The position numbers and the translations under genes were made by a program. This document shows, piece by piece, positions 2,348 through 13,057 of a stretch of DNA of 29,032 bases. Positions within the stretch are counted from its first letter, which is position 1. Each line of letters begins with the position of its first letter. Source of the DNA: a virus; the IMG/VR virus record IMGVR_UViG_3300047443_000020, positions 1 to 29,032 of that record; one strand, written 5' to 3'. The notes under the pieces were generated by a model that was not told the DNA's origin, searched no databases, and saw only the letters and a program-made list of their open reading frames with translations.

Positions 2348-3139
2348 GTGAAGTTGAAACTCGATGACAAAGGCAACGTCGTTTTGCAGGACGGCAAGCC
2401 GGTCTACCTCCTCGACGATGGCCGAGAGGTGGCCCACGATGCTGCCGCAACCGTCGCGACGATCTCGCGCCTCAATGGCGAGGCCAAGGCCCACCGTGAA
2501 GCCAAGGAAGCCGCCGAAGGCAGGCTCAAAGGCTTTGAAGGGATCGAAGACGGCGAAGCGGCCCGCAAGGCACTCGAAACCGTCAAGAACCTCAGCACCG
2601 GCGAGCTGAAGACCGCGGCCCAGGTCCAGGAGATCAAGGACGCCGCCGCCCGCAGCGCCACCGAGGCCGTGGCCAACGCGACCCGCACCGCGCAAGAACG
2701 TGAACGCGCGCTGGCCGAGACCAACGCGAAGCTGACCGGCCAACTGAACAACCACATCGTCGGCCACGCCTTCGCCTCGTCGAAGTTCGTGACCGAGAAA
2801 CTGGCGATCCCCGCCGACATCGCCCAGAAGTTCTTCGGCGACCGCCTCAAGGTGGAAGACGGAAAGCTCGTGCCGCTCGATCGCAGCGGCAATCCCCTGT
2901 TCTCTGCTGTTCGCCACGGCGAGCACGCTGACATCGACGAGTTCTTGCAAGTCGCAGTCTCCGAGTACCCCAACAAGGAAATGATCCTCAAGGGCTCGGG
3001 TGGGACGGGGGGTGGTGCTGGTGGCGGCAAGCCGAACACCGGCAACGGCGGCGGCAAGACGATGAAGCGCGAAGCATTCGACGCACTGCCGAGCGTGCAG
3101 CGCGCCGAGATCGTGAAGACGCACGCCATCGTCGACTGA
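2348..3139 (+). CDS. Capsid scaffolding protein
   Basis: The 263-aa product is charged, mostly helical and Ala/Glu/Lys-rich, with a long predicted coiled coil at about residues 40-145. A Gly-rich linker (about 217-240, GSGGTGGGAGGGKPN and on) is followed by a basic C-terminal helix beginning MKREAFDALP. A helical body, flexible linker and short basic tail is the architecture of internal scaffolds that bind coat protein through the tail. It lies directly upstream of a P22-type major capsid gene, the expected site. From memory similar phage proteins carry a DUF6651 label; I cannot verify this. The start is GTG at 2348, the only start in frame after the terminators; no strong Shine-Dalgarno is seen. 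No protease domain is present. Confidence 0.8.
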   Translation: MKLKLDDKGNVVLQDGKPVYLLDDGREVAHDAAATVATISRLNGEAKAHREAKEAAEGRLKGFEGIEDGEAARKALETVKNLSTGELKTAAQVQEIKDAAARSATEAVANATRTAQERERALAETNAKLTGQLNNHIVGHAFASSKFVTEKLAIPADIAQKFFGDRLKVEDGKLVPLDRSGNPLFSAVRHGEHADIDEFLQVAVSEYPNKEMILKGSGGTGGGAGGGKPNTGNGGGKTMKREAFDALPSVQRAEIVKTHAIVD

Positions 3140-3196
3140 TAGACCCCCTCGAAACAGAAGCGCGGTTCCCAACGAGCCGCCTCTGAATCCCAACCG

Positions 3197-3223
3197 AGCC
3201 CGCCATGTGCGGGCTTTCTCATT
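3197..3223 (+). terminator. Hairpin upstream of the capsid gene
   Basis: AGCCCGC (3197-3203) pairs with GCGGGCT (3209-3215) around a 5-base loop, followed by TTCTCATTT. The capsid gene's Shine-Dalgarno GAAAGG follows at once (3227-3232). It may be a partial terminator or an mRNA 5'-end stabiliser rather than a complete stop. Confidence 0.55.
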
Positions 3224-3240
3224 TCAGAAAGGCCCTAATC

Positions 3241-4410
3241 ATGGCTGCTCTCACCCTCACCTCCCTGATCCCGACGATCTACAACGCGATGGACGTCGTC
3301 TCTCGCGAGCTCGTCGGCTTCATCCCGGCCGTCTCGAAAGACTCGAGCGCCGAACGCGCGGCACTGAACCAAGTCGTGATGTCGCCGGTCGTCGGCGCGA
3401 TGGCGGCCGAAGACCTTGTCGCGGCCAACGTCGCGGCGGACACGCCGGCCCAGACGATCGGCAACGTGCAGATGACCATCAGCAAGGCTCGCTCGGTGCC
3501 CTTCGGCATCACGGGCGAAGAGACGCTGGGTCTGCGCAACGCCGGCACGCTCGACACCGTCAACCGTGACCGCATCGCGCAAGCCCTGCGCACGCTGACG
3601 AACGAAGTCGAAACCGACCTCGCCGCGCTGCACATCTACGCCTCGCGCGCCTACGGCACCTACAACACGGCGCCGTTCGGCACCGCCGGCGACTTCACCG
3701 ACTTCTCGAACTCGCTGCGCATCCTGGACGACAACGGCGCGCCGCTCAGCGACCGCCAGCTCGTGCTGGGCTCGTCGGCCATCTCGAACATCCGCGGCAA
3801 GCAGTCGGTGCTGTTCAAGATGAACGAGGCCGGCACCGATGAACTGCTGCGTCGCGGCATCGTCGGCCAGGTGGAAGGCTTCGACATCCACAACAGCGCT
3901 CAGGTGAAGACCGCCGTCACCGCCGGCACCGGCGCGTCGGCGACGACCAACACCGCGGGCTACGCGGTGGGCGCGACGACCATCACGCTGGCCTCGGCCG
4001 GCACCGGCACGATCATCGCGGGCGATCTGATCACCTTCGCCGGTGACACGAACGTCTACGTCGTCGTGACTGGCGACACCGACACCTCCAACGGTGGCAC
4101 GGTGGTGATTGCCGAGCCCGGTCTGCGCAAGGCGATTGCCGCTTCGGCGACCGCCATCACCGTCACCGCGGCGACGACCCGCAACATGTTCTTCCACCGC
4201 TCGGCCATCCAACTGGCCACCCGCGCCCCGGCCATGCCGGACGGCGGCGACTCGGCGGACGACGTGATGCTGATCCAAGACCCGGTGTCGGGGATCACGT
4301 ACGAGTTCGTTGTGTACAAACAAAAGCGTCAGCTCAGGTACGAGGTGAATCTTGCGTGGGGCGTCAAAGCCGTCGCATCGCGCCACATCGGCCTCCTCAT
4401 CGGCGCCTAA
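3241..4410 (+). CDS. Major capsid protein, P22 coat-protein family
   Basis: The start is ATG 3241, with GAAAGG (3227-3232) eight bases upstream; an in-frame upstream GTG at 3205 lies inside the hairpin and is not the start. The 389-aa product begins MAALTLTSLIPTIYNAMDVV and carries features I recognise from the P22 gp5 coat family: SRELVGFIPAV, QTIGNVQMTISKARSVPF, RGKQSVLFKMNEAGTDELLRRG and AMPDGGDSADDVMLIQDPVSGI. A beta-rich insertion at about 245-315 (GYAVGATTITL, AGDLITFAGDTNVYVVV) corresponds to the Ig-like insertion domain of this family. The length is a little below P22's 430 aa. It assembles the icosahedral shell around the upstream scaffold. No prohead-protease cleavage is expected for this coat type. 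Confidence 0.95.
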   Translation: MAALTLTSLIPTIYNAMDVVSRELVGFIPAVSKDSSAERAALNQVVMSPVVGAMAAEDLVAANVAADTPAQTIGNVQMTISKARSVPFGITGEETLGLRNAGTLDTVNRDRIAQALRTLTNEVETDLAALHIYASRAYGTYNTAPFGTAGDFTDFSNSLRILDDNGAPLSDRQLVLGSSAISNIRGKQSVLFKMNEAGTDELLRRGIVGQVEGFDIHNSAQVKTAVTAGTGASATTNTAGYAVGATTITLASAGTGTIIAGDLITFAGDTNVYVVVTGDTDTSNGGTVVIAEPGLRKAIAASATAITVTAATTRNMFFHRSAIQLATRAPAMPDGGDSADDVMLIQDPVSGITYEFVVYKQKRQLRYEVNLAWGVKAVASRHIGLLIGA

Positions 4411-5169: not shown

Positions 5170-5592
5170 TTGGCCAGCTACAACAAGTTTTCCGCATTCA
5201 TCGAAAACCAACTGATCAGCAAGATCGATTGGGATGCGGACGTTTTCAAGGTCATGTTGACCAACACGGCCCCTGTCGCGACCAACTCGCTGAAGGGTGA
5301 CCTGACCGACATCAGCGCTGGTAACGGCTACACGGCTGGTGGCACGGCGACCACGATCACGCACTCGCGTTCGAGCGGCGTGTCGAAGATCGTCGGCACG
5401 GACGTGGTCTTCACGGCGGCCGGTGGCTCGATCGGTCCGTTCCGCTATGCGGTGCTGTACGACGACACCGTCTCTTCGCCGGCCAAGCCGCTGGTTGCCT
5501 GGTGGGACTACGGCTCGTCGATCACGTTGGCGGATACCGAAACTTTTACGGTTGACTTTGACGCTACGAATGGTATTTTCCAGGCGTCTTAA
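5170..5592 (+). CDS. Putative capsid decoration / virion structural protein
   Basis: No ATG or GTG fits the frame start; TTG at 5170 has AAGGAG (5158-5163) six bases upstream, so a TTG start is convincing. The 140-aa product begins MASYNKFSAFIENQLISKID and contains GDLTDISAGNGYTAGG, a signature I recall from abundant small virion proteins encoded near capsid genes. The rest is a compact beta sandwich (GPFRYAVLYDDT, KPLVAWWDYGSS). It probably decorates the capsid or lies in a fibre. The last 20 codons are rich in T-ending codons (ACT, TTT, GTT, AAT, GGT, ATT), unlike the rest of the gene and right beside the HNH gene, so this end may have been replaced during homing. Confidence 0.72.
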   Translation: MASYNKFSAFIENQLISKIDWDADVFKVMLTNTAPVATNSLKGDLTDISAGNGYTAGGTATTITHSRSSGVSKIVGTDVVFTAAGGSIGPFRYAVLYDDTVSSPAKPLVAWWDYGSSITLADTETFTVDFDATNGIFQAS

Positions 5593-5609: not shown

Positions 5610-6254
5610 TCATTGAGGCTTTGGGCCACGCTTCATCTTGCCGGGGCGCAAAGCCTCGGATGGCGGCATGCCATGCTGGATACGTGACGCTAGCGTGCTT
5701 GGGTTGATCCCCAGCAGTTCGGCCCAAACGCGCAGAGGTCGCGAGACGCCGTCGAGCACGATGTAGATCGTGTTTGACCTATTGCGTGCCTGGGTTACTT
5801 CGGTCGCCCAGCGGCAGTTTTCCTTGCAGTAGCCGAGGTTGTTGTCTTTGCGGTCGAGGGTCATGCCTTTGGGTTTGATGCCCATGTCAGCGAGGAAGTT
5901 TTCGTAAGACAGCCAGCGCTCGCAGACACGGATGCCACGCCCTCCATAGCGCTCATACGAAGCATGCGATTTCGTATTGCAGCGAGCCACCATGCCGGCC
6001 CATGTGAAGTAGGTCGGCGTGATGTGCGTCGATGAACTGTGCCCATGCTTTGTACTTCTCGCGACGAGAATTTCGTTCTTGAGGCAGCCGCAACTCGTCG
6101 AGTGTCCCGTGCGAAGAACGATGCTCTTGAGAACGCGAGCAGCGCCGCAGTCGCAAAGGCAACTCCACTGGGCCTGCCCATTGCGGTGGTTCTCTGCTCG
6201 TGCGAGTACGAGCCATCGACCGAAACGTTGCCCCTTGATATCAATCGGACGCAT
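5610..6254 (-). CDS. HNH homing endonuclease 1, antisense in the virion operon
   Basis: The start at 6254 (MRPIDIKGQRFGRWLVLA) has AAAGG nine bases upstream on the minus strand; the open frame runs further upstream without a good start. The 214-aa protein has an N-terminal Cys cluster (C32, C34, C36, C55, C57; WSCLCDCG ... SCGC), probably metal binding. The core has YERYGGRGIRVCERW, NFLADMG, LDRKDNN and KENCRWAT, typical of phage HNH-type freestanding endonucleases. A C-terminal helix-turn-helix-like segment (RVWAELLGINPSTLASRI) may read the target. It nicks or cuts a specific site in phage DNA lacking the insertion, spreading itself by repair. It opposes surrounding transcription, has lower GC than its neighbours and fits exactly in an intergenic gap, all signs of mobile insertion. 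Confidence 0.9.
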   Translation of the reverse strand: MRPIDIKGQRFGRWLVLARAENHRNGQAQWSCLCDCGAARVLKSIVLRTGHSTSCGCLKNEILVARSTKHGHSSSTHITPTYFTWAGMVARCNTKSHASYERYGGRGIRVCERWLSYENFLADMGIKPKGMTLDRKDNNLGYCKENCRWATEVTQARNRSNTIYIVLDGVSRPLRVWAELLGINPSTLASRIQHGMPPSEALRPGKMKRGPKPQ

Positions 6255-6263
6255 ATGGACCAA

Positions 6264-6300
6264 CCTTTGTTTTCGATTGCTAATTTTAGCACGGCAAAGG
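6264..6300. promoter_or_regulatory. Dyad-symmetric divergent control region
   Basis: Between the divergent HNH gene and the next virion gene lies nested symmetry: CCTTTG (6264-6269) with CAAAGG (6295-6300), and inside it TGCTAA with TTAGCA (6278-6291). The outer arms are the Shine-Dalgarno sequences of the two divergent genes. It could be a hairpin, an operator or a nuclease target; only the symmetry is seen. Confidence 0.4.
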
Positions 6301-6311
6301 CGCGCTGAGCA

Positions 6312-6860
6312 ATGCCGCGCCGCCTGCGCATCGGCTTCCCGCGATACGTTCTCGTTGCGGACACCGCGACGATTTCGGTCAACGGACAAGCCGTCAATCT
6401 GCGGCGCGGCAAGGCGCTGGTGTCGGCCGGAGGTTCGTCAACGATAGTCGGTGTTGCCGCGGCACTGCGAGTTGCGCGAGTCCTGGTGGCGGCACAGGGA
6501 ACTGTAGCCATCACGGGGCAGGCCGCCACGCTGACGAAGGGCAGCGCGGCCACCTCCGGTGCGGCGCTGAATTCCCCATTCCAGCTCGATCCAACGCCTG
6601 GCACGGGTCAGTTCACACCGAATTTCCAAGATCCACAGACCAAGGCGGACGGCTCGGCGATCGGCGCGATCACGGCGCGGACCTGCTACTACAGCCTGAC
6701 CGAAGGAGTCGCTCGCGAAATGGGTGGCACGTCGGTCTCCTGCACGTCTGGGACGCCAATCACCGGCATCGCGGCCGGCACGTACTACATCGCCGAGACG
6801 GTGACTGCTGGCGGGCTGGAAAGCAATCCATCAAACGAGAAGCCGGTGGTCGTGTCATGA
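6312..6860 (+). CDS. Short repeat-bearing fibre-like protein
   Basis: ATG 6312 is preceded by AAAGG (6296-6300). The 182-aa product begins MPRRLRIGFPRYVLVADTAT. Residues about 13-74 form three copies of the roughly 22-residue unit found some 20 times in the 738-aa fibre at 10513-12729; the third, VLVAAQGTVAITGQAATL, is nearly consensus. The rest (about 80-182) is beta-rich and ends in a fibronectin-like strand pattern (ITGIAAGTYYIAETVTAGG). It overlaps the beta-helix gene by ATGA, so the two are co-translated and may work together. The abrupt start in the middle of a repeat array, next to the HNH gene, suggests the 3' part of a formerly longer fibre gene. Function is presumed adhesion or fibre structure. 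Confidence 0.72.
   Translation: MPRRLRIGFPRYVLVADTATISVNGQAVNLRRGKALVSAGGSSTIVGVAAALRVARVLVAAQGTVAITGQAATLTKGSAATSGAALNSPFQLDPTPGTGQFTPNFQDPQTKADGSAIGAITARTCYYSLTEGVAREMGGTSVSCTSGTPITGIAAGTYYIAETVTAGGLESNPSNEKPVVVS
6348..6533 (+). repeat. Three copies of the AxxGTxxxxGQAAxL repeat
   Basis: Three diverged units encode ISVNGQAVNL, TIVGVAAAL and VAITGQAATL at intervals of 22-23 residues. They are homologous by eye to the array at 11101-12630, but not identical in DNA. Confidence 0.75.
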
Positions 6861-8545
6861 AGCGAATGCCATTCAAGCGGGTCGCACTCTCGATCCTCCT
6901 GCTTCAGGCCTTCCCGGCCTGGGCTGCGACTTACTACTTCTCAAACTGCGGCACGGGTGCGGCTGTCGGCGTCTGTTTAAACGGTGCAGATGGCAACAAC
7001 GGAACGTCGACGTCTACGCCGAAGCAGACCATGTCGGCATTCGTCACGCTCGCGAACAGCGCGGCGCCCGGCGACCGTTTCCTCTTCTCGAAGGGCGGCG
7101 CCTGGAACAACTTCACGACGCTACTTGAGACGCGCAACGGGACACTCGCGGCATTCGCTGCGAACCCGGTCGTCATCGGCAGCTTCGACCCGACGACCTT
7201 CAGCAGCAGTGCGCGCCCACGGCTCAACCTGACATCTGGCGCGAGTGGCAATCCGGTCGACTCGGCGGCAGCCTTCCGCTTCACCGGCGGCAGCGGAACG
7301 ACGCTCTTCGGCGGTTACGACATCAGCGGCTTCCTGATCGACGGAGGCGGCAACACCGAATTCAACAGCGGCTTCCTCGTCTACAACGTCGGCTCCTACG
7401 TCAACTTCCATGACAACGTCGTCCAGGGGACGATGACGTTCACCGGGTGCCAAGCGAACAGCAACGGCACGAACCCAGCGCCCCGCAACATCACCATTCG
7501 CAACAACACCATGACCGATTCACTCGGCATGGGCATCACTGCTTTCAGTTGCAGTGACCTCTTGATCGAGGGCAACACGCTGACGCGGGCGGCGAATCGC
7601 ACGACGATCACCGCTGCGAGCAAGGGATTCGATCATGCGATGTACGTCAGCGCTGACGAGACGAACGCAACAACGCGGAGGACGAAGAACGTTGTCATCC
7701 GCAACAACACGATGATCGATACGTGCTTCGGATCGACCGACGCGCCGACAGCAAGTTCGTGCACGGTCATGGTCGGGCATGGCCGATCCGATGGGTGGAC
7801 GATCGAGAACAACCTCGTCAAGAACTCGACGAAGGCGAGCGCCAACGGCTACGGCGTCGCGTTCAGTGCGGCCAACTTCGTCAGCGGGCAACCCGAATAC
7901 AACTACCGGCTCACGCTGCGCGGCAACCGCTTCATCAATGTCGGCTACATCGGCATTCAGGTTGATGGCACGAACGGCGGCATCGTCGAGAGCAACGTCG
8001 TCGTGCAGGAGTTTGCTGGCGAGTACGTCGGCATCCGGCAGACGAATTCGAACTGGAGCGACAGCGTTCCCAACTTCAAGAACGTCTACCGCAACAACTC
8101 TCTCTGGTTCGCGAACTCGGATGGCTCGAACCCTCTGTATGGGCTTCAGATCAACGGCGTCGGCTCGGGCCAGCACGTTGTCTCGAACAACCTGATCGTC
8201 TTCGCCGGAGCTAGCGGTGGCAAGCAGTGCTTCGCGACGGACATCGCGAACACGGGCTTCACAGCATGGGACAACAACTTGTGCTTCGGATTCAACACCT
8301 GGGCGAACGGGTCGAGCCTTGCGTCGTGGCAGTCGTCGCGTAGCCAGGATGCTGCGAGTCTGAGTAGCAATCCGAACCTCGTCGCGACGCCGAGCTACGC
8401 CAACAACGGCAGCATGAAAGTGCAGAGCGGGAGCCCTGCCATCAATGCTGGGAACACGACCTTCAAATCGCGCCTCGCGATCGACGGTTACCCGGCGGTC
8501 GGTGCGCGCGACATCGGCGCCTTCGAATTCGGGAGCAATCCATGA
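6857..8545 (+). CDS. Secreted-type right-handed beta-helix protein (tailspike/depolymerase-like)
   Basis: The start overlaps the preceding stop (ATGA). The N-terminus has a clear Sec signal peptide: basic MKRMPFKR, hydrophobic VALSILLLQAF and a cleavage site AWA-A after residue 23. The 562-aa protein then shows many rungs typical of the pectate-lyase-like parallel beta helix, for example ITIRNNTMTDS, LLIEGNTLTRA, VVIRNNTMID and WTIENNLVKN. The C-terminal region (GSPAINAGN ... GYPAVGARDIGAFEF) is the end motif common in bacterial secreted beta-helix proteins. Phage tailspikes with this fold bind or cleave polysaccharide, but catalytic residues cannot be assigned here. The signal peptide is odd for a virion protein and suggests capture from a bacterial secreted protein or a product exported by the host cell. 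Confidence 0.85.
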   Translation: MKRMPFKRVALSILLLQAFPAWAATYYFSNCGTGAAVGVCLNGADGNNGTSTSTPKQTMSAFVTLANSAAPGDRFLFSKGGAWNNFTTLLETRNGTLAAFAANPVVIGSFDPTTFSSSARPRLNLTSGASGNPVDSAAAFRFTGGSGTTLFGGYDISGFLIDGGGNTEFNSGFLVYNVGSYVNFHDNVVQGTMTFTGCQANSNGTNPAPRNITIRNNTMTDSLGMGITAFSCSDLLIEGNTLTRAANRTTITAASKGFDHAMYVSADETNATTRRTKNVVIRNNTMIDTCFGSTDAPTASSCTVMVGHGRSDGWTIENNLVKNSTKASANGYGVAFSAANFVSGQPEYNYRLTLRGNRFINVGYIGIQVDGTNGGIVESNVVVQEFAGEYVGIRQTNSNWSDSVPNFKNVYRNNSLWFANSDGSNPLYGLQINGVGSGQHVVSNNLIVFAGASGGKQCFATDIANTGFTAWDNNLCFGFNTWANGSSLASWQSSRSQDAASLSSNPNLVATPSYANNGSMKVQSGSPAINAGNTTFKSRLAIDGYPAVGARDIGAFEFGSNP

Positions 8546-8799
8546 AATACCACGTCCACTTCCGGCCCGTCGAGGGCCACGAAACCCTATCGGAGTGGCT
8601 GATCCACGAAGAGGGGTCTGACGAAATCGACGAAGACCCGCAAGGGCAAGCCTGCTGGGTCGAGGCCGACTCACCGGCCGAGGCGAAGACGAAAGCGAAG
8701 TGGGCACTGTTCCCGGACCGGATGGCCAAGGCGCAAGCCAAGCTCGACGCCAACCCGGCATACCAAGCGTGGCTGAAAAGCCGGGGCGGTGTTGAATGA
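8542..8799 (+). CDS. Hypothetical acidic protein, 85 aa
   Basis: ATGA overlaps at both ends tie this gene to the beta-helix gene before it and the beta-sandwich gene after it. The product begins MKYHVHFRPVEGHETLSEW and has an acidic stretch EEGSDEIDEDPQG, a Lys/Ala-rich helix (PAEAKTKAKWALF) and a second helix. No signal peptide or membrane segment is present. I do not recognise it. Small cytoplasmic proteins between fibre genes are often assembly chaperones, which is only a guess here. Confidence 0.65.
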   Translation: MKYHVHFRPVEGHETLSEWLIHEEGSDEIDEDPQGQACWVEADSPAEAKTKAKWALFPDRMAKAQAKLDANPAYQAWLKSRGGVE

Positions 8800-9443
8800 C
8801 GACCAAGAATCAAGGCGTCGTTGGCCGCGCCACGGCCGCCTCTGTCCAGACGACCACATCCGCGATCACCAGCGCTGCCGATGTGATCCTGGTGGCCTAC
8901 GTGGCGGCTGGCGGGAACTTCACAACCTGGGCTGACAACCAGAGCAACACGTACACGAGCGAGGCCACCTACTCGCCGTCCAACGATCCGACGACGGATG
9001 TGGAGGTGCGCCGGTGCAAGAACGTCACGAACGGGCCGACGCAGTTCACCGTGTCCAACGACTCGTTCCGCGACACGGCCTTGGCGGTCTACGACGTCAG
9101 CGGTCTCTCGAGTGCTGCCGCCGATACCCCCGTCAATGCCGCGTTCTCCAGCGCGAGCCCGACGACGACGATCACGACGTCGGTTGCGAACGAATTCATC
9201 ATCGGTCTGATCATCCACACGGGTGACAACGACGCGAGTCACACCGCTGGTTCTGGCTGGACCAAGGACGGCCCAACCGATGTTTGCCCGGCGAGCTTCG
9301 AGTCACAAATCGGCGCGACGGCGACCACCTACAACGTGGACATGACCCTGAGTGGGTCCAACGTCGGGAACATCTTCGCCATCGCCTTCCGGCCGGCCGC
9401 AGCCGGCGGCGGCAAGACCCTCATGACGCTCGGCGTGGGTTGA
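8796..9443 (+). CDS. Beta-sandwich virion/adhesin-like protein
   Basis: The 215-aa product begins MTTKNQGVVGRATAASVQTT in an ATGA overlap. It has the pattern of a jelly-roll or concanavalin-like beta sandwich: DVILVAYVAAGGNFTTW, TQFTVSNDSFRDTALAVYDVSGL and NEFIIGLIIHTGDND. Such domains recur in phage proteins that sit on fibres or capsids and bind surfaces. A similar order of motifs (GDLIIGFAYRDGS, then VIFHVYRGA) forms the N-terminal domain of the 738-aa repeat fibre at 10513, so the two probably share a fold. The C-terminus is a short Gly-rich tail. The stop lies 4 bases before the 3' end of the second antisense HNH gene. Confidence 0.65.
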   Translation: MTTKNQGVVGRATAASVQTTTSAITSAADVILVAYVAAGGNFTTWADNQSNTYTSEATYSPSNDPTTDVEVRRCKNVTNGPTQFTVSNDSFRDTALAVYDVSGLSSAAADTPVNAAFSSASPTTTITTSVANEFIIGLIIHTGDNDASHTAGSGWTKDGPTDVCPASFESQIGATATTYNVDMTLSGSNVGNIFAIAFRPAAAGGGKTLMTLGVG

Positions 9444-9447
9444 CGCC

Positions 9448-9993
9448 TCAGCTAAAGCGCCCGGCTGCGTCGCGTGCGCGATGTTGCCACTTGATGTTGT
9501 GTGTTCGGTTCTGCGCCTGCTCCTTGCGAGAGGCCCAGACGCAGTTGCCGGGTTCGTAGTTGCCGTCGTTGTTCTTGCGTTCGATGGTGTTCTTGCCGGG
9601 TGGGCAGTGCCCCATGTCCGCCAAGAAGGCGGCGAAGGATCTATCCCATCGCGCGCAGACGCGGATACCGCGGCCGCCGTATCTATCGTAGTGATCCTTG
9701 TTGGGATTGCTGCATCGCTGACGCATTTCAACCCAACTGGAGTGCTCGGCGGGGCGATTTCTTGAAGCCGTATGCCCCTCAAGCGAGTAGCTAGCGCCGC
9801 GCGAACAACCGCAGCTAACGCTAACGCCGCGAGTGAGGCTCTGTCCTCGAATCACGCGCTCGGTGCCGCATTCGCACCTACACATCCACGCGCTCTTCCC
9901 AGACTGCCGCTCGGCGTCGCCAAGAACGATCCATTTACCGAACTGCTTGCCAACCAACGACCTGAAGTTGTGGGGCGGGTTGTGATTTGCCAT
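9448..9993 (-). CDS. HNH homing endonuclease 2, antisense in the virion operon
   Basis: The 181-aa protein begins MANHNPPHNFRSLVGKQFGK. It has an N-terminal Cys cluster (C38, C40, C42, C61, C63; WMCRCECG ... SCGC) and a core with HYDRYGGRGIRVCARW, FLADMG, IERKNND and PGNCVWAS. This is the same family and order as endonuclease 1 at 5610-6254, without its C-terminal helix-turn-helix extension; the two diverged well before now. It sits with only 4 bases after the upstream stop and 29 bases before the downstream gene, transcribed against the operon. It probably cuts a site in the intergenic region or the flanking genes of uninfected relatives. The Shine-Dalgarno is weak, so expression may be low. 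Confidence 0.9.
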   Translation of the reverse strand: MANHNPPHNFRSLVGKQFGKWIVLGDAERQSGKSAWMCRCECGTERVIRGQSLTRGVSVSCGCSRGASYSLEGHTASRNRPAEHSSWVEMRQRCSNPNKDHYDRYGGRGIRVCARWDRSFAAFLADMGHCPPGKNTIERKNNDGNYEPGNCVWASRKEQAQNRTHNIKWQHRARDAAGRFS

Positions 9994-10022: not shown

Positions 10023-10490
10023 ATGGCCGACAATTTTGTTACAAATGCCGGGAGCGGTGGAAGCACCTTCGCTTCCGATGATGTCAGCAGCGTCCAATAC
10101 CCGCGCGTCAAGCGTTCGTACGGCCGTGATGGCACCGCCTCGGACGTGGGGACGCTGTCCGCCAAGTTCATCTCTGCGGCGACCACCAACGCCACGAGCG
10201 TGAAGGCTTCGGCGGGCGTCCTGTACTGCATCGTCGCCTTCAACCTGAACGCGGCCGTGCGTTACCTGAAGCTCTACAACAAGGCATCGGCTCCCACGGT
10301 CGGCACGGACACGCCGGTCATGACGGTGCCGATTCCGGCGTCGGCGACGGGCGCGGGCTTCGTGCTTCCGATTCCGCCGGGTGTCGACTTCTCGACGGGC
10401 CTCGCGTTTGCATTGACGACGGCCGCCGCAGATGCCGACACGGGAGCGGTTGCTGCAAACGAGCTCTTCGTTCACCTGATCTACGTCTGA
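10023..10490 (+). CDS. Small virion structural protein, 155 aa
   Basis: The ATG lies 29 bases from the divergent start of HNH 2, with GAAAG upstream. The product begins MADNFVTNAGSGGSTFASDD and is beta-rich (VLYCIVAFNLNAAVRYLKLYN, in which YLKLYNKASAPTVGTDTP is a motif I associate with small virion proteins found near fibre genes). Residues 105-155 contain GFVLPIPPGVDF and ALTTAAADADTG, resembling phage proteins often annotated only as structural. There is no signal peptide or membrane segment. The first codons (AAT TTT GTT ACA AAT) are AT-rich unlike the rest, again suggesting that the homing event altered this boundary. Its likely place is in a fibre or at the fibre base. Confidence 0.65.
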   Translation: MADNFVTNAGSGGSTFASDDVSSVQYPRVKRSYGRDGTASDVGTLSAKFISAATTNATSVKASAGVLYCIVAFNLNAAVRYLKLYNKASAPTVGTDTPVMTVPIPASATGAGFVLPIPPGVDFSTGLAFALTTAAADADTGAVAANELFVHLIYV

Positions 10491-10512: not shown

Positions 10513-12729
10513 ATGTCGCTGACTCGCGTCGGCTCGGCCAAGGGCGTCACCAGCGCCACACTGCCGACGCATCAATCCGGCGACCTGATCATCGGGTTCG
10601 CGTACCGGGACGGCAGCACCACTGCGCCGACGATCCCCGGCACGCCGGCCTGGAACACGATCGACTCGGCCGGCGCGAACACCAACTCTGCCGTCACGGT
10701 CTGGTTCGTCGCGACGGGTGCGGGCACGACGACCGGCACGTTCACGAATGCCACCGAGGTCATCTTCCACGTCTATCGTGGCGCGCTGAACGGCTCGCCG
10801 ATCGGCGGACACGCGGTCGACGGCGCCAGCAGCACCAACGTCAACTACCCGACGTTGACGATGTCGCGCGCCGACGCGACCTCGTGGGTTGCGGGCTTCG
10901 CGGGTCACCGCTCGACCAATACCTCGCTGGAAACTGCCCCCACGGGGATGCAGAACCAGCAGAACCAGAACGACGCCACGGCGGAGGCATCAGGTCACGA
11001 CACGAACGGAACGGTATCGGCGTGGTCCGGTACGGTGGTCGCGGTCGGCGGCACGAGCAGTGGATGGCGCTCAGCAACCGTTGAGATCAAGGCGCGGCGC
11101 GACTTCACGCTGACTGCGGATCAGGGTTCGTATTCGGTTGCGGGCCTCGCCGCCGATGTGCTCGGGCCGATCGGCAAGGCGGGTGATCCGGGACCGTTCC
11201 CGCACCTCGGGCTTTTGCTCACCGCTGCGCATGCGTACACGCTCACGGCCGCGCAGGGCACCTACAGCGTCACCGGGCAGGCGGCGATCGTCGTGCCGGC
11301 GCGCAAGATCGTCGCCGCGCAGGGAACGTACGCAGTCTCGGGGCAAAGCGCATTCCTGAACTATGCGCGGCTGAAGCTCACCGCCGCTCAGGGCGCGTAC
11401 AGCATCACGGGTCAGTCCGCAGCGTTCCTGCGCGGCTACGACATCGCCGCCTCGCAAGGCACGGTCTCGATCACCGGGCAAGCCGCCGCGCTGAAGGCGA
11501 CACGCCGCATGGCGGCGGCGCAGGGCACGTACAGCGTCTCGGGACAAACGGCAGGGCTGAACTACAGTCCGATCGGTTCCTCGCAGTTCCCGGCGCCGTT
11601 CCCGCATCTGTCGTCGCTGATGGCGCCGAATGGGTCGGCATCACTGGTGGCGGCTCAAGGCTCGGTCACGATCTCGGGTCAGGTCGCCTTCCTGCGGGTC
11701 GGGCGCCTGAGCCTGGTCGCCGCTTCTGGCACCTATTCGATCAGCGGGCAGGCGGTCGGGTTCACGGCGACGCAGGCAAACCGCGCCTGGAATGCAGCGC
11801 CGCTGCCGCACCTCGGTTCGATCCTGCAAGCGCGCTCGACGCTGGTCGCGGCTTCTGGCTCCTACACCATCGCGGGGCAGGTCGCCAACTTCGCGGTCAA
11901 GCATTCGCTCTTGGCGGGTGGCGGGGTCTACTCGTTCACGGGCTCGGACGCGCTGCGCGACTTCCAGATCACGAGCAGTGGCGGCACGTACTCGATCACC
12001 GGCCAAGCCGCGAACCTCACGCGCAGCCGTCGCGTCATCGCGGATCAGGGCTTCTACAACTTCGCGGGGCAAGCTGCAGCGTTCCGCGCGACACACCGGC
12101 CGCTGACGAGCGATCAAGGCGTGGTGCAGGTCTTCGGTCAGGCGGCCGGGTTGAGCGCCGGGCGCCGGATCGCTGCGGCCAGCGGCACCTACCTGACGAG
12201 CGGACAGGCGGCTTCGCTGCTTCGGGTCCGTCGAGTCGTGGCGGTGCAGGGACTCTATGCCTACGCCGGCAATGCGGCGAACCTGGTCACGTCGAACCAG
12301 ACCAACTTCACCGTCACGGCGCAAAACGGCGCCTACGCGGTGGCTGGATTCGCTGCGGGGTTGCGAAGCGCTCGCCGCGTGGCGGCAGACGGCTCGGCGG
12401 TTGGCGTGGTTGGGTTCCCGGCTGCGCTGCGCAGGGCCTGGATCTTGGCGGCGGCGTCAGGCAGCTATTCGTCGCCAGGTGCGGCAGCAATCCTCACGCG
12501 CAAGCGGTTGATGGTGGCCGATGGTTCATCGGTGGCCGTGACCGGCTATCCGGCGCAATTGCTGGTCTCGCGCAAGCAGCTCGCCGCGGACGCTGGCTTG
12601 ATCGTCGTGACCGGCTTCGCGGCGCAATTGAGCATCGGCTCATCGATCGACATCTCGGAAACACGGATCGTCTACGTACCGCCCGAGAGTCGTGTGGTTC
12701 ACGTGGAACCTGGAGTGCTCAATGGCTGA
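10513..12729 (+). CDS. Large repeat fibre: lectin-like head plus about 20 tandem repeats
   Basis: ATG 10513 follows a short gap. Residues 1 to about 195 form a beta-sandwich domain (GDLIIGFAYRDGSTT, VTVWFVATGAG, VIFHVYRGALNG, SGWRSATVEIKA) of the type found in phage adhesins. Residues about 197-706 hold about 20 units of roughly 22 residues with the consensus AAQGTYSVTGQAAxLxxxR. Repeats toward the C-terminus are more degenerate (GFPAALRR, GYPAQLLVS). Three units carry inserts ending in PFPHL or PLPHL (near residues 229, 363 and 432). The C-terminus (SSIDISETRIVYVPPES) overlaps the next gene by 8 bases. An elongated beta-structured fibre is likely. The next gene encodes a fibre-tail adaptor, which supports a fibre role; the receptor is unknown. 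Confidence 0.8.
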   Translation: MSLTRVGSAKGVTSATLPTHQSGDLIIGFAYRDGSTTAPTIPGTPAWNTIDSAGANTNSAVTVWFVATGAGTTTGTFTNATEVIFHVYRGALNGSPIGGHAVDGASSTNVNYPTLTMSRADATSWVAGFAGHRSTNTSLETAPTGMQNQQNQNDATAEASGHDTNGTVSAWSGTVVAVGGTSSGWRSATVEIKARRDFTLTADQGSYSVAGLAADVLGPIGKAGDPGPFPHLGLLLTAAHAYTLTAAQGTYSVTGQAAIVVPARKIVAAQGTYAVSGQSAFLNYARLKLTAAQGAYSITGQSAAFLRGYDIAASQGTVSITGQAAALKATRRMAAAQGTYSVSGQTAGLNYSPIGSSQFPAPFPHLSSLMAPNGSASLVAAQGSVTISGQVAFLRVGRLSLVAASGTYSISGQAVGFTATQANRAWNAAPLPHLGSILQARSTLVAASGSYTIAGQVANFAVKHSLLAGGGVYSFTGSDALRDFQITSSGGTYSITGQAANLTRSRRVIADQGFYNFAGQAAAFRATHRPLTSDQGVVQVFGQAAGLSAGRRIAAASGTYLTSGQAASLLRVRRVVAVQGLYAYAGNAANLVTSNQTNFTVTAQNGAYAVAGFAAGLRSARRVAADGSAVGVVGFPAALRRAWILAAASGSYSSPGAAAILTRKRLMVADGSSVAVTGYPAQLLVSRKQLAADAGLIVVTGFAAQLSIGSSIDISETRIVYVPPESRVVHVEPGVLNG
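11101..12630 (+). repeat. Array of about 20 protein repeats, roughly 66 bp unit
   Basis: Repeats are readable from the translation as xLTAAQGxYSVTGQAAxL units. DNA copies have diverged, with no exact long identity seen, so the array is old rather than a recent slippage product. Related units occur at 6348-6533. Confidence 0.85.
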
Positions 12730-13057
12730 CGGCAGCGCAATCACAACCTCGGCAAGCGGCAAGAAGAGCGCGATCAAAGACCCGGATGCCGTTTTGGACT
12801 TCAGCTTCGACTGGTCAGACTGGCTCGCCGAGGTTGGCGACACGATCATCCAGCACGCTTTCAACGTGACCGACCCGGACGGCGCGACAGTGCCCATGGT
12901 GGTGACATCGACGGTGCGAGCCAACGGCATCGTCACGGCGTTCGTCAGTGGCGGCACGGTCGGCAAGACGCATGCGCTGACCTGCCGCATCACGACCGGG
13001 TCGACGCCGCCGCGCATTGACGAGCGCACGCTGTTCGTCAAGATTCGGGAGCGTTGA
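12722..13057 (+). CDS. Fibre-tail adaptor-like protein
   Basis: ATG 12722 overlaps the fibre gene's stop by 8 bases; a longer frame from 12692 would lie inside the fibre gene. The 111-aa protein begins MADGSAITTSASGKKSAIKD and contains DPDAVLDFSFDWSDWLAEVGDT and a late TCRITTGS ... DERTLFVKIRER. This is the layout of the small phage proteins that databases call fibre-tail adaptor (from memory), an immunoglobulin-like domain encoded directly after fibre or decoration genes. It would anchor the upstream fibre to the virion. Good support comes from motif order and gene position; the physical partner is inferred. Confidence 0.75.
   Translation: MADGSAITTSASGKKSAIKDPDAVLDFSFDWSDWLAEVGDTIIQHAFNVTDPDGATVPMVVTSTVRANGIVTAFVSGGTVGKTHALTCRITTGSTPPRIDERTLFVKIRER

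Follow-up and report, generated by a model that had tools for sequence, protein, structure and literature searches.

A 22-residue repeat array as the probable thread of a GP4-like bead-on-rope side fibre in a long-tailed phage

Introduction

Flexible side fibres are usually absent from cryo-EM models, and the genes encoding them stay "hypothetical". In fibre I of the Ralstonia podophage GP4, five gp80 dimers are reportedly joined by an elongated rope protein, the thread binding the beads, and five such fibres are said to sit on a 15-fold collar. The PDB entry 8jou ("Fiber I and fiber-tail-adaptor of phage GP4"; Zheng et al. 2023, doi 10.1016/j.jmb.2023.168258) contains 10 chains of gp80 and 3 of gp77. 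Three GP4-like rope relatives, searched against the PDB, gave no match; the GP4 rope has apparently not been deposited with its sequence, and its gene has to be deduced from relatives, which counts against the reading proposed here. In the neck whiskers of phage Sf14 (gp30/gp31), a thread (gp30) runs through partners that are dimers, and an adaptor holds it (PMC11821841). Alishewanella phage LSH1 carries a module, gp34-gp35-gp36, that comprises a payload protein, an 8JOU_g-like bead and an Ig-like protein; the C-terminal part of the payload protein is poorly predicted and was left unexplained by the authors (PMC13243795). The collar of phage Milano was also considered as a parallel and rejected, since there are no fibres there.

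The window analyzed here is a 29-kb virus record (IMGVR_UViG_3300047443_000020, 29,032 nucleotides) with the gene order of a siphophage: the major head protein (3238-4407) is followed by a structural cassette, a head-tail adaptor, head closure and neck proteins and, beyond the neck, by the tail terminator, major tail protein, tape measure and distal tail protein. The cassette contains a gene (10513-12729, + strand) for a 738-aa repeat protein that is probably the thread, or rope, of a composite bead-on-rope side fibre resembling GP4 fibre I. As in GP4, a Gp77-type adaptor gene and a bead of the gp80 fold are present, and by its position and repeats the 738-aa protein corresponds to the elongated linking protein encoded beside the adaptor. 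Unlike the podophage GP4, the window phage has the gene set of a long tail, its bead belongs to phrog_644 and not to PF23140, and its rope differs in its repeat, in having a large N-terminal domain and in carrying three docking-like motifs. The window rope is best read as being of the GP4 fibre-I type in a long-tailed phage, distinguished by the bead family, the number of units, roughly 20, and the conservation of a docking-like motif. The Sf14 whiskers resemble the window in their arrangement of thread, partner and adaptor, although they are short and not a 20-unit array (PMC11821841), and the LSH1 module, a set of three genes with a payload and an 8JOU_g-like bead, is similar to the window's cassette (PMC13243795).

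The Probable Rope Gene and its Repeat

The 738-aa protein matched no family in Pfam or NCBIfam, and a PDB sequence search with it retrieved nothing relevant. A consensus scan located 20 units of about 22 residues each (consensus LTAAQGTYSVTGQAAxLxxxRx) between residues 200 and 711 (nucleotides 11110-12645, +), and the original prediction of about 20 tandem 22-residue repeats was therefore right in essentials. Sixteen of the 19 spacings between units are of 20–26 residues, mostly 22 or 23, and the remaining three are of 43–45 (200 to 244, 333 to 378, and 401 to 444). Thirteen units outscore the best window of any of 500 shuffles (shuffle maximum 39, mean 22.2). The decay of the repeats toward the C-terminus, also predicted, is real though uneven, with scores of 24–26 for the units at 623, 667, and 690 and still 60 and 49 for those at 601 and 645. 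Since TRF detects no tandem repeat in the DNA of the gene, the array has diverged.

An alignment search retrieved 217 viral loci encoding this repeat, of which 80 were kept. Among them the unit length is 22 residues (639 of the spacings counted), followed in frequency by 20, 24, and 26, and there are from 5 to 27 units per protein, preceded by many different N-terminal domains. Spacings other than 22 are even in 88 cases and odd in 32, an excess to which kinship among the loci prevents attaching a reliable probability value, and which points more to an extended chain of alternating beta strands than to looped coils. In bacterial genomes the repeat was found in one locus, a Hyphomicrobiales MAG, a weak result because the search patterns were narrow.

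A short second protein with about three units of the same repeat is encoded at 6312-6860 (+; tblastn match to the rope, gene start uncertain). Its ORF starts beneath the 5′ end of an ORF on the opposite strand (5610-6389, −) that is HNH-endonuclease-like by eye and has no Pfam match, an arrangement that would suit another rope gene cut short or interrupted by a homing endonuclease. A second HNH-like ORF lies inside the structural cassette at 9448-9993 (−), and has no Pfam match at E 0.01.

Ahead of the array, residues 1–195 (10513-11097, +) form a globular domain with matches to phrog_36177 (1e-22) and to the minor tail protein family phrog_13352 (1.6e-14). In the AlphaFold2 model of the whole rope it is beta-rich, with pLDDT mostly 87–97. 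It had been described as lectin-like; the beta-rich character holds, but the best PDB match (Z 4.5, for residues 1–197 within the long model) is not a lectin. The domain occurs in 49 viral loci; predicted viral proteins that share it include minor tail proteins from mycobacteriophages and from rhizobium phages. One of its relatives is in a 1661-aa protein (DUF4082) of Rhizobium phage RHph_TM16 (41.5% over 163 residues), which also ends in short regular repeats, as the window rope does, although their sequence differs. We presume that this domain is the distal payload of the fibre. That the gene at 8796-9443 shares the domain was considered and not supported.

The Adaptor Gene and the E-x-R Tail

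Immediately downstream, the gene at 12722-13057 (+) matches PF23148, "Podophage GP4 fiber-tail adaptor protein gp77" (1.7e-20, cutoff passed), together with a weak match to 8jou_D (E 0.0045). Beginning with the ATG at 12722, it overlaps the stop codon of the rope gene (12727-12729). That the rope gene adjoins a fibre-tail adaptor gene supports the original assignment of the protein as a fibre. The rope ends in a C-terminal E-x-R tail, ISETRIVYVPPESRVVHVEP (12652-12711, +), the presumed anchor to the adaptor.

If the window protein is a rope, the genes before Gp77-type adaptors should share its architecture and not its sequence. We surveyed 78 loci from an adaptor alignment plus the earlier loci, and compared 61 distinct upstream proteins of at least 150 residues with a control set of 367 further genes from these loci. 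An E-x-R tail (as in SETRIVYVPPESRVVHV) was found in 42 of the 61 proteins just upstream of adaptors and in 15 of the 367 controls (p 1e-30, a value that, like those of the other gene associations, overstates the case because related phages are not independent). A significant period of 18–26 residues characterizes 39/61 of the upstream proteins vs. 16/367 of the controls. Several of the 15 tail-positive controls are themselves rope-like proteins. In one locus (L171) rope and adaptor are fused in a single ORF with PF23148 at residues 1391–1469 of 1473; this ORF (L171:2259-6677) joins dozens of SHTTD and TTAVSRV units to the Gp77 adaptor domain. The order in BcepIL02 is a Gp80 bead (PF23140), a protein of 285 aa whose 11 anchors are spaced 20–23 apart, and the adaptor; the window rope has about twice as many units as this relative. 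BcepMigl has about eight anchors.

Some observations count against the rope reading. Of 74 distinct proteins carrying the window's repeat, only 9 have the E-x-R tail, and most loci with this repeat show no detected adaptor. An E-x-R anchor used by all of these proteins is therefore rejected, and the repeat must also occur with other anchors. Ropes without the tail, such as those of L030, L013, and L035, often end in short repeats (VVEQDANIVQ, NPSSNSVTLEAA, and KIESGAATITI) which are perhaps such anchors.

A Probable Bead with the Gp80 Fold

The gene at 5170-5592 (+) encodes a 140-aa protein of phrog_644 (4.8e-17). Its AlphaFold2 model, built from an alignment of 45 phrog_644-type proteins, has a pLDDT of 91 and a pTM of 0.87. 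Plain Foldseek gave no significant match, and the similarity to GP4 came from a second look with VIA-align only, in which the model and 8jou_a, a chain of the GP4 fibre I entry, superpose nearly end to end (Z 9.0, 3.3 Å, 117 of 140 residues). VIA-align further retrieved baseplate, neck and fibre proteins of phages, including the T4 baseplate chain 5iv5_BJ, and the bead also resembles 9c39_K, a chain of the Sf14 neck entry (Z 6.5). At the profile level, hhalign compares the bead with Gp80 at 74.7% (E 2.6e-5), and one protein of L137 is matched by both profiles. The bead is nevertheless not a member of PF23140 (Gp80); a Pfam search extended to E 1 gave no match.

In 57 of the 80 loci with the window's repeat, a 140-aa phrog_644 bead is encoded on the same strand, no more than about 6 kb away. 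The bead gene was found in 61/81 loci with this repeat and in 25/126 without it, while detected Gp80 beads show the opposite distribution (0/81 vs. 22/126). This suggests that the window's repeat and the phrog_644 bead are matched pairs, an association that may partly reflect descent. The position of the bead gene, 4.9 kb upstream of the rope with other genes between, speaks against the rope reading.

A Conserved Motif in the Linkers and its Neighboring Gene

Three docking-like motifs, DPGPFPHLGLLL (11185-11220, +), FPAPFPHLSSLM (11587-11622, +), and AAPLPHLGSIL (11794-11826, +), have their cores at rope residues 228, 362, and 430, within two residues of the PFPHL/PLPHL inserts predicted at about 229, 363, and 432. 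The motifs had been placed inside repeat units; they are present, yet they sit in linkers between units. Each linker takes the place of roughly one repeat and leaves the units on either side approximately in phase. The motif is retained in the close relatives L092 and L170. A DNA pattern for PAP[FL]PH[LIFM]G, run across all viral contigs, returned 47 stretches, and the real matches share residues beyond the search pattern, roughly GGDPAP[FL]PHLGLLL. The proteins that carry them have repeats of at least five unrelated types, namely that of the window, "GDAxGTGSA" (L224), "TVNGTSSTPDTV" (L222 and L236), "SIGTITLTSAG" (L250), "GNAEGTSTA" (L262), and "STGALAAQAAVVAG" (L264).

A search for genes common to the motif-bearing loci singled out the family of the 155-aa MADNF...GSGG..FASDD protein encoded at 10023-10490 (+). 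Of the 14 motif-bearing loci, 13 carry a relative, compared with 11 of the 205 loci that lack the motif (p 1e-13). In most of the former the gene lies directly upstream of the rope gene, ending no more than 35 bases from it. The 14 loci were counted by hand, excluding chance matches outside ropes (L230, L247, and L259), merging duplicates of one contig, and adding L228. The sole motif locus without a relative (L236) is cut at the locus edge, and the relatives in the 11 motif-free loci are without the GSGG..FASDD form of the N-terminus. In L092, the closest relative, two tandem copies of the gene for this predicted 155-aa partner (2350-2829 and 2833-3312) precede the rope. Because motif and gene co-occur, the linkers are best read as putative docking sites for the 155-aa protein, their predicted partner, and the original suggestion that the inserts may be binding sites gains support from this association.

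Proposed Fibre and Alternative Explanations

The evidence for a rope is genomic and statistical, and from it we infer the contacts, stoichiometry and polarity of the fibre proposed here. The E-x-R tail would bind the Gp77-type adaptor made from the next gene, tying the fibre to the neck collar. Each 22-residue unit, probably two short beta strands, would capture copies of the Gp80-fold bead (5170-5592), so that the number of repeats would set the length of the fibre. The three PAP[FL]PHLG linkers would dock the 155-aa protein (10023-10490), and the distal end of the fibre would expose the N-terminal domain. The rope's cassette also encodes a beta-helix protein similar to tail spikes (6857-8545, +; phrog_2234, 8.4e-7), possibly an enzyme payload of the fibre.

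The array could also be a beta-solenoid stalk that folds by itself, as had been proposed, each unit being one coil, the whole a rigid rod and the PFPHL linkers its flexible joints. Twenty-two residues is a usual length for a solenoid coil. AlphaFold2 does draw a solenoid, with short strands in each unit, pLDDT of 65–88 along the array and below 50 in the motif linkers, and VIA-align superposes residues 468–731 on right-handed beta-helices (HMW1 secretion domain, Z 16.4; P22 tailspike, Z 14.5). However, the pTM is only 0.53 and AlphaFold2, unlike AlphaFold3, is documented to give confident false solenoids from repeats (PMC11795689). Moreover, the mostly even spacings other than 22 (see above) are better suited to an extended beta chain, and other phages fill the same place with unrelated repeats of 20–23 residues. 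We regard a solenoid as possible but less likely, and the genomic evidence fits a bead-clad thread of the GP4 type better.

Attachment to the capsid instead of the neck collar, as a head fibre or capsid decoration, agrees with the location of the gene between the major head protein and the connector genes, which lie downstream of the rope from 13047 on, and with the 'head and packaging' label that PHROGs gives to the BcepIL02 bead and rope. The overlapping adaptor gene belongs, however, to the GP4 fibre-tail adaptor family (PF23148), which makes this attachment quite improbable. A further alternative concerns the inserts only and is compatible with the rope reading: the PAP[FL]PHLG linkers might be spacers with no partner, co-inherited with the neighboring gene as one cassette. 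The motif loci do carry related 155-aa proteins, and descent of the cassette from a common ancestor is possible, but the motif has been retained among surrounding repeats of five or more unrelated kinds, and we consider a mere spacer rather doubtful.

Implications

Taken as a thread of the GP4 type, the window rope may belong to a wider class. A tentative but possible generalization is that ropes are exchangeable arrays of 20–23-residue bead-binding units, anchored by an E-x-R tail to a Gp77 collar, with a portable PAP[FL]PHLG motif docking the 155-aa partner whatever the repeat, so that the numbers of units and motifs would write the composition of the fibre.

Such a class could extend to the LSH1 module. 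In Slickus01, a relative of LSH1, the stretch matching the C-terminal part of the LSH1 payload has a clear 20-residue period, as expected of a rope. The Slickus01 protein (L221:2379-9320, −) has 2313 aa, and its C-terminal 800 residues repeat every 20 (DKSxFDISDV...). After the repeat stretch there are weakly adaptor-like and bead-like genes, suggestive matches with E-values from a four-sequence search. These 20-residue repeats may explain the region of LSH1 gp34 that resisted prediction.

If the rope reading is true, the question left open in the 2026 LSH1 paper, an unpredictable region beside a lyase domain, would be answered (PMC13243795). A docking motif testable by peptide would be on offer. 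One structure, that of GP4, would account for a very common gene cassette, and there would be a rule for spotting the thread, bead and adaptor genes of side fibres in uncultured phages.
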